NCBI GenBank assembly: GCA_002726445.1
Contig: PBSZ01000043.1
Location: 1 to 33,373 of the forward strand
From: Cellvibrionales bacterium
Lineage (GTDB): Bacteria; Pseudomonadota; Gammaproteobacteria; Pseudomonadales; UBA7434
Length of the DNA stretch: 33,373 bases
Direction of reading: 5' to 3'
The notes under the pieces were generated by a model that was given only the letters and a program-made list of their open reading frames with translations, ran no database searches and was not told where the DNA came from. This document shows, piece after piece, positions 24,873 to 26,849 of the stretch (its first letter is position 1; every line of letters begins with the position of its first letter). Both the position numbers and the translations under genes were made by a program.

Positions 24873-26231
24873 TTAAGCGTAAAAAATAGTGGCTAGGCCA
24901 AGAAAAGACATAAAGCCAACAACGTCGGTAATGGTCGTTAAGATCACACCACCGGCAAGCGCCGGATCAATGTCCATTTTTTTCAATACTAAAGGTAAGA
25001 CCGCACCGGCAAGGGCGGCCGTGATTAAATTGATAATCATTGCGGCGGCGATAATACCGCCGATGATAAGGTCATCAAACCATGCAATGGCAGCAGCTGC
25101 AACGACTGCAGCCCAGATAAGGGCATTGATGAGCCCGACGCTCAATTCTCTGACGATCAGCCAGCGCTGGTTATGTTGCTCAATATGACCGACGGCTAAA
25201 CCTCGAATTACAATCGTGAGCGTCTGCGTGCCTGCAACACCACCCATGCTGGCTACAATGGGCATCAGGATAGCTAAAGCGACGACTTTGTCGATTGCTC
25301 CTTGAAATAGGTTTATGACGGAGGCGGCGATAAACGCTGTCAGTAAGTTAAGGCCCAGCCACAGTGCGCGGCGCGGTGTGGTTTTGATGACGGGTGAAAA
25401 AGTATCTTCCTCCTCATCCAGGCCTGCAAGGCTCATTAGGGCATGATCGGCGTCTTCACGTATCACATCGACGATGTCATCGATAGTGATTCGGCCAAGT
25501 AGTTTCCCTTCGTGATTAACAACCGGTGCCGATACCCAATCCTTTCGCTCAAATCGACGAGCAACCTCATCATCCGGCATATCGACAGGGATGGTTTCAG
25601 CGTCAGATAACATAATTTCGCGAACGGTATTATTAGGATCAGAAACCAGTACTTTAGCTAATGGTAAGCTGCCAATAAAGGCATCGCTGCGATTGACGAC
25701 ATAGAGTTTATCTGTCATCTCAGGAATTGCATCATGACGACGGAGGTAGCGAAGCACCACCTCGACTGAATGGCTGGCTCTTACTGTAATGGTGTCAGTG
25801 TTCATCAAGCCACCGGCGGTATTCTCAGGGTAACTCAATGCGGTGGCGACGCGTTGACGATCTTGAGTGCTCATGGCTTGCAATACTTCCCGGGTGACTT
25901 GCTCGGGTAATTGCTGAAGAATATCAACCATGTCATCAGTTTCTAGCTCTGCCGATAGGGCGACGAGTTCTTCATTGTCCATCTCGAGTGCAAATTGCCC
26001 TTGCAATTCATCACCTAATAACGGCATCACGTCGCTGCGCCGTTCTTCGTCAATGAGAGCCCATAAAATTTGTCGAGACGGCGGTGGCGAGGCATCTATG
26101 AGATGCGCTGTTTCTTCAGCGGCAAGTACTTTAAGCATATGACGGGCATGCTGAAACGTGCCTGACTGAAGCAGTTTGGCCACTTCTTGGCTATGAGAGC
26201 GGTTTTGCTTGTGATCGATTTTAGCTGGCAT
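24873..26231 (-). CDS. mgtE: Magnesium transporter MgtE
   Basis: 452 aa; MgtE N-domain, CBS region, membrane part with MPIVASMGGVAGTQTLTIVIRGLA and GVILTTITDVVGFMSFLGLATIF. Confidence 0.95.
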   Translation of the reverse strand: MPAKIDHKQNRSHSQEVAKLLQSGTFQHARHMLKVLAAEETAHLIDASPPPSRQILWALIDEERRSDVMPLLGDELQGQFALEMDNEELVALSAELETDDMVDILQQLPEQVTREVLQAMSTQDRQRVATALSYPENTAGGLMNTDTITVRASHSVEVVLRYLRRHDAIPEMTDKLYVVNRSDAFIGSLPLAKVLVSDPNNTVREIMLSDAETIPVDMPDDEVARRFERKDWVSAPVVNHEGKLLGRITIDDIVDVIREDADHALMSLAGLDEEEDTFSPVIKTTPRRALWLGLNLLTAFIAASVINLFQGAIDKVVALAILMPIVASMGGVAGTQTLTIVIRGLAVGHIEQHNQRWLIVRELSVGLINALIWAAVVAAAAIAWFDDLIIGGIIAAAMIINLITAALAGAVLPLVLKKMDIDPALAGGVILTTITDVVGFMSFLGLATIFYA

Positions 26232-26248
26232 AACGGCATCTAACTCAT

Positions 26249-26286
26249 AAAAAAAACCTGCGATATCGCATTAAATGACGTATCGC
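26249..26286 (-). promoter_or_regulatory. Terminator-like hairpin with U8 in the mgtE 5' leader (candidate attenuator)
   Basis: Minus strand GCGATA-CG-(T)-CAT-TTA-ATG-CG-(A)-TATCGC (11 pairs, two single-nt bulges) followed by AGG and TTTTTTTT, 17 nt between the U-tract and ATG. Confidence 0.6.
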
Positions 26287-26358
26287 TGCTAAATGACTAT
26301 GAATAGTCTTAGAGTATGCGGCAAAGTTTTTATTGCAACAAGCCTAGAAGCAGGCAAG

Positions 26359-26390
26359 ATTACCGATGTTGGTCATGCCGCATCGGTAAT
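26359..26390. repeat. Inverted repeat between mgtE and the small membrane-protein gene
   Basis: ATTACCGATG-TTGGTCATGCCG-CATCGGTAAT, perfect 10-bp arms, 12-nt spacer. Confidence 0.7.
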
Positions 26391-26459
26391 TGCCGGTAAG
26401 TAATTGTTTTTCTGTTGAGCGTCTAGAACGCTCTCATAGGTTGTTGTTGACTAGAACGC

Positions 26460-26849
26460 CTAAGAGCTATTTTTTGACTGGCAGAGTAATAAGCCGCTGA
26501 GTGAGCTGCCGGTGACCTTCATCATACCCAATATATAAACTAAGCCAATAGTGCCATCAAATACCACCAGCGCGTATTCGGGTGACGTTGCCAATCCGTT
26601 AGGTACTGCATAAAGCACGGCAGATACAGCCGTTAGACGCACTAGCCCCTGCCAAAAAATCACCGGCGAGCGATTGACCATATCGTTGGAGGCCCACATT
26701 AAACAGGCTGCAGCCATGGCAAGGAACATGCCGAGCGTCATCAGTGATACGAAATACCCTGCTGCTGGATTTGAGATTGCGCCATACCAGCAACCTGCGG
26801 CAATCACAAAGTCGAAAGCGCCTGTCCAATATACGAATTTTTGTAACAT
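26460..26849 (-). CDS. Small four-helix hypothetical membrane protein
   Basis: 129 aa from MLQKFVYWTGAFDFVIAAGCWYG; several hydrophobic helices. Upstream extension in the ORF track (to 27011) overlaps the epimerase gene and is unlikely. Confidence 0.7.
   Translation of the reverse strand: MLQKFVYWTGAFDFVIAAGCWYGAISNPAAGYFVSLMTLGMFLAMAAACLMWASNDMVNRSPVIFWQGLVRLTAVSAVLYAVPNGLATSPEYALVVFDGTIGLVYILGMMKVTGSSLSGLLLCQSKNSS

Follow-up and report, generated by a model that had tools for sequence, protein, structure and literature searches.

A probable conserved promoter with an adjacent putative protein site and a short hairpin leader upstream of mgtE in a Cellvibrionales bacterium

Background

Leader RNAs control other Mg2+ transporters, as in the case of the M-box and of the mgtA leader. 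The M-box (ykoK), a Mg2+ riboswitch collected in Rfam as RF00380, is located upstream of Mg2+ transporter genes and can end in a terminator. A search of the literature for an mgtE leader or promoter in gammaproteobacteria returned nothing, and the control of mgtE in gammaproteobacteria without an M-box seems to be little studied.

The window analyzed here is a stretch of 33,373 nucleotides from a Cellvibrionales bacterium, in which mgtE is preceded by 228 nt described, in a first-pass annotation, as a structured leader possibly sensing Mg2+ or a metabolite. The region resembles three described systems in part. Like the M-box it precedes a Mg2+ transporter gene, but no covariance-model match is found in the window or in its relatives, and the predicted leader, about 75 nt long, contains one hairpin and no conserved aptamer. 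With sigma-70 promoters flanked by an activator or repressor site it shares hexamers spaced by 17 bp, an A/T-rich -10 element and a protein-site-like sequence upstream of the -35; it differs from them in having TTGTTG instead of TTGACA and an additional TTT within the spacer, and in being nearly unique to mgtE. Finally, as in intrinsic terminators and attenuators, a hairpin followed by U6-8 lies between promoter and gene in four species, whereas its modest stability, its restriction to one lineage and the lack of a detected antiterminator or sensor set it apart.

The mgtE locus

The assembly containing the window is incomplete (70%), and the genomes nearest to it are Cellvibrionales MAGs. Comparisons within the genus were based on 11 genomes, window included, featuring a complete mgtE and its upstream region, while a twelfth contains only a fragment. 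The gene is located as follows.

24873..26231, minus strand: mgtE, Mg2+ channel/transporter with MgtE_N, CBS and MgtE domains (Pfam PF03448, PF00571, PF01769); ATG at 26231

It is followed by darP/yjgA. On the upstream side, compared between the window and loci L006-L012, most relatives carry an HPr-like npr gene; in the window subclade the position is occupied by a gene for a small membrane-like protein that matches no Pfam family (26460-26849 of the window, minus strand), preceded in turn by a NAD-dependent epimerase gene. The promoter block described below remained with mgtE across this rearrangement. A search of the parental genome for repeats of the whole 228-nt stretch detected only the stretch itself.

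The first-pass annotation had listed four inverted repeats and a U8 tract, all of which were found at, or very near, the reported positions when the minus strand is read. Three of the repeats are given here, and the fourth, closest to the gene, is described with the leader.

26433-26417, minus strand: hairpin GAGCGT-TCTAG-ACGCTC, whose arms drift in relatives
26390-26381 / 26368-26359, minus strand: inverted repeat ATTACCGATG/CATCGGTAAT
26308-26295, minus strand: hairpin GACTA-TTCA-TAGTC

When folded as RNA, a 231-nt stretch scores better than 200 dinucleotide shuffles (z -3.9), while the 101-nt part downstream of the promoter suggested by the annotation is unremarkable (z -1.2). The GAGCGT/ACGCTC hairpin, upstream of the promoter, probably falls within the 3' region of the preceding gene. 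In the alignment of upstream regions the GACTA/TAGTC pairing is broken in relatives; this hairpin, the 5' arm of which spans the predicted start site, is judged not to be a conserved part of the region.

A conserved block upstream of mgtE

Comparison of the 11 species revealed that the DNA flanking mgtE on its upstream side is unalignable between distant congeners, and that a single block is nearly fixed. It extends over 53-54 bp (GGTAATsTTGmCTGCwTC-N3/4-nCTTGTTG-N9-CTwT-N4-CATAmT, minus strand 26364-26313), and 30 of its 54 columns are invariant. The elements recognized within or next to it are the following.

26350..26364, minus strand: operator-like 15-mer GGTAATCTTGCCTGC, directly upstream of the -35 (GGTAATsTTGmCTGC in 11/11 congeners)
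26341-26336, minus strand: -35 element TTGTTG, invariant in 11 congeners and also present at mgtE in 11 loci from other families
26323..26326, minus strand: CTTT inside the promoter spacer (CTwT in 11/11 congeners; TTT, or ATT in two loci, in other families)
26318-26313, minus strand: -10 element CATACT (CATAmT in 11/11 congeners; GATAAT, GATACT or CATAAT elsewhere)
26306, +/-2 nt, minus strand: predicted transcription start, placed from the position of the -10

The spacer between TTGTTG and CATAmT measures exactly 17 bp in all 11 congeners, while CATAmT lies anywhere from 81 to 207 nt upstream of the start codon. Fixed spacing combined with variable distance from the ATG corresponds to promoter geometry, and the block shows what is expected of a sigma-70-type promoter, namely two hexamers separated by 16-18 bp and conserved upstream of orthologues. 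Both hexamers match the sigma-70 consensus weakly, and the site was not listed by a simple promoter scan. The annotation had indicated a possible promoter, TTGCAA-16-TACTCT, exactly in this place; its register is slightly off, the conserved version being TTGTTG-17-CATACT. Each genome of the genus contains a single exact copy of the pattern, the one at mgtE.

Two different readings of the block were discarded. By-eye inspection of both strands for coding potential revealed variable columns without codon periodicity, frames broken in several congeners and a 1-nt insertion in one species. A heat-shock sigma-32 reading of CTTGTTG...CATA was rejected as CCCC is missing on the -10 side.

The exact operator-like 15-mer has at most one further match per genome. 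As only two stray exact matches besides mgtE were found in 12 genomes, its use as a regulon marker was abandoned. A sequence model built on the block was used to scan 392 genomes of the order: strong matches were confined to the genus and always located at mgtE, while the remaining ones, outside the genus, did not rise above chance (E 0.001-0.01).

In the four closest species, the window species included, the operator-like site is accompanied by an inverted partner.

26381..26394, minus strand: inverted partner GGCAATTACCGATG of the operator-like site; present only in the four closest species, with retained arms and a variable loop

The inverted repeat listed above thus extends to GGCAATTACCGATG (26394-26381) and CATCGGTAATcTTGCC (26368-26353), with a two-base bulge, and in the four species it is present at the mgtE locus only. 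Since its right arm coincides with the conserved site, which is retained even where congeners lack the left arm, and its arms lie 21 bp apart, centre to centre, around a variable loop, the TTACCGATG dyad is better read as DNA, and would fit protein binding better than an RNA stem.

The promoter pattern outside the genus

The genus-derived pattern CTTGTTG-17-CATAmT, allowing up to two mismatches, was run on 82 mgtE upstream regions from outside the genus. It matched 11 of them, against 0.38 expected from shuffled sequences; as controls, reversed sequences gave no match and other spacer lengths gave 0-1. The matching loci belong to four lettered families of the order (f23, f30, f31, f41), to the named isolates Seongchinamella and Pseudohaliea, to a Halieaceae MAG and to an unclassified gammaproteobacterial MAG. 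They share the TTT within the spacer, replaced by ATT in two. Of a mixed set of genomes, eight gave hits, some in this genus and some in other families; every hit except one is located at mgtE. These comparisons point to a sigma-70-like promoter specific to mgtE and retained in several families.

In four loci from other families (L013, L014, L018, L024) the -10 region reads GGATAATTGnC or GGATACTTGAC, resembling the genus-specific GGTAATsTTGmC. Possibly, one protein recognizes both.

The predicted leader and its terminator-like hairpin

A start near 26306, as deduced from the -10 at 26318-26313, would leave the GAGCGT hairpin and the TTACCGATG dyad in upstream, untranscribed DNA, and would deprive the GACTA hairpin of the first bases at its 5' end. 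In the resulting leader, predicted to be about 75 nt long, the last hairpin with its U-run is the only one of the annotated hairpins lying wholly inside. A longer leader, including the other hairpins, could arise from an extra promoter further upstream or by read-through of the preceding gene.

26260..26286, minus strand: terminator-like hairpin in the predicted 75-nt leader, better than shuffles in the window and three relatives
26249..26256, minus strand: U8 run; six of its T columns do not vary among the four closest species

The hairpin reaches 11 pairs only when one bulged A and one bulged U are tolerated, and because of these bulges it was missed by a simple terminator scan. AGG and then U8 follow it, with 17 nt between U8 and the ATG. 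Using a bulge-tolerant score for hairpin plus U-run, equally good shuffles were obtained in 5/200 cases for the window and in 6, 3 and 1/200 for the three closest relatives, i.e. 0.5-3% per species. In the four species the stability is modest, between -8 and -14 kcal/mol, and the structure ends in U6-U8. GCGAU/AUCGC at the base of the stem and six U's show no change, while the inner, loop side drifts. The consensus hairpin, of 10 pairs, is 95% paired and one pair is changed on both sides; with only four sequences, pairing support is not significant relative to shuffles (128/500). As had been noted in the first pass, the mgtE transcript must cross hairpin and U-run. The comparison adds that the three closest relatives have retained them.

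Outside these four species the structure is missing. It is absent from the other 7 of 11 congeners, despite the same promoter and gene, and was sought in the 11 other-family loci and not found. In 10 of the latter the leader measures 32-70 nt; the value for L016 (8 nt, implausible) is unreliable, depending on an automatic choice of the start codon. This distribution marks the hairpin as an addition specific to one lineage, the four-species subclade, and apparently a young one.

No clear Shine-Dalgarno precedes the mgtE ATG in the window, and GATGCCGTTATG does not vary among the four closest species. Short leader ORFs, compared by eye, are not conserved between window and relatives. In the window, two further start codons lie shortly ahead of that of mgtE (region 26248-26229, minus strand): the one in ATGAGTTAG (26248-26240), where a stop follows after a single codon, and an ATG in another frame (26239-26237).

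Discussion

Taken as a whole, the stretch upstream of mgtE is probably for the most part a conserved promoter rather than a new Mg2+-sensing RNA. In the proposed explanation, a sigma-70-like promoter, TTGTTG-17-CATACT, would start mgtE transcription near 26306, and a protein bound to GGTAATsTTGmCTGC, directly upstream of the -35, would probably help or control it. In the four-species group that includes the window species, the site has acquired its inverted partner, with 21 bp between the two centres. The product would be a leader of about 75 nt with one terminator-like hairpin and U-run, lowering read-through into mgtE in the four-species subclade as a fixed or regulated attenuator. The combination of conserved promoter, adjacent putative protein site and short hairpin leader is considered likely. 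Genome comparison shows the conservation of promoter and site and the restriction of the hairpin to four species; start site, protein binding, termination and any Mg2+ response are inferred.

The sensing-leader reading of the first pass, extended to a riboswitch-like RNA covering all 228 nt and governing the terminator ahead of mgtE, draws on the better-than-shuffled folding of the stretch, on the terminator-like hairpin preceding a Mg2+ transporter gene and on the precedents of the M-box and the mgtA leader. It now appears very improbable: the upstream repeats precede the predicted start, and the covariation expected of such an RNA did not emerge, since RNAalifold of the genus-wide block with its flanks predicted zero base pairs over 11 species. 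The proposed comparison with Rfam was equally negative: neither the window nor any of 15 related loci reached the gathering score of a family, and a 461-bp region gave nothing even at E 10. Moreover the block has promoter geometry, with its fixed spacer, and recurs in other families, while the hairpin which should act as expression platform is missing from 7/11 congeners and from other families having the same promoter. The block might instead be the operator of a multi-gene regulator, or another DNA element distinct from a promoter, given that the 15-mer and the spacer CTTT are more conserved than an ordinary promoter requires; the -35-like and -10-like boxes at a fixed 17-bp spacing and the single complete block per genome, with no regulon seen, make this quite unlikely.

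The role of the hairpin may be discussed within the frame of the conserved promoter. As transcripts from this promoter must cross it, attenuation is plausible, and in this lineage the hairpin may work as an attenuator or may terminate transcription in part; conditional termination is a possibility in the four species. The specific version in which a protein, or a short leader ORF being translated, switches the hairpin is tentative, and less probable than its opposite: the unchanged GCGAU/AUCGC base and six U's next to a drifting loop side, and a score beating shuffles in each of the four species, speak for it, against which stand the failure to identify an alternative antiterminator fold, the lack of conservation of leader ORFs and the little covariation in the inner helix. 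That hairpin and U-rich strand, 17 nt before the ATG, serve as a translational standby or S1-binding site rather than as a terminator is unlikely; the lack of a good Shine-Dalgarno in the window and the invariance of GATGCCGTTATG would suit such a function, whereas a stem with an 8-nt U-run directly behind it is the classical layout of a terminator.

Conclusion

A broader scheme can be sketched for marine gammaproteobacteria, in which a family-spanning mgtE promoter (TTGTTG-N10-TTT-N4-SATAAT plus the genus-specific GGTAATsTTGmCTGC) would be served by a putative novel Mg2+-responsive regulator and, in one subclade, by a conditional attenuator; in this full form it is speculative, and doubtful. 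At the level of the locus, the candidate riboswitch gives way to a model that lends itself better to testing, in which mgtE has a conserved promoter and a putative regulator site at a fixed place, and the promoter may be used as bait for the regulator.
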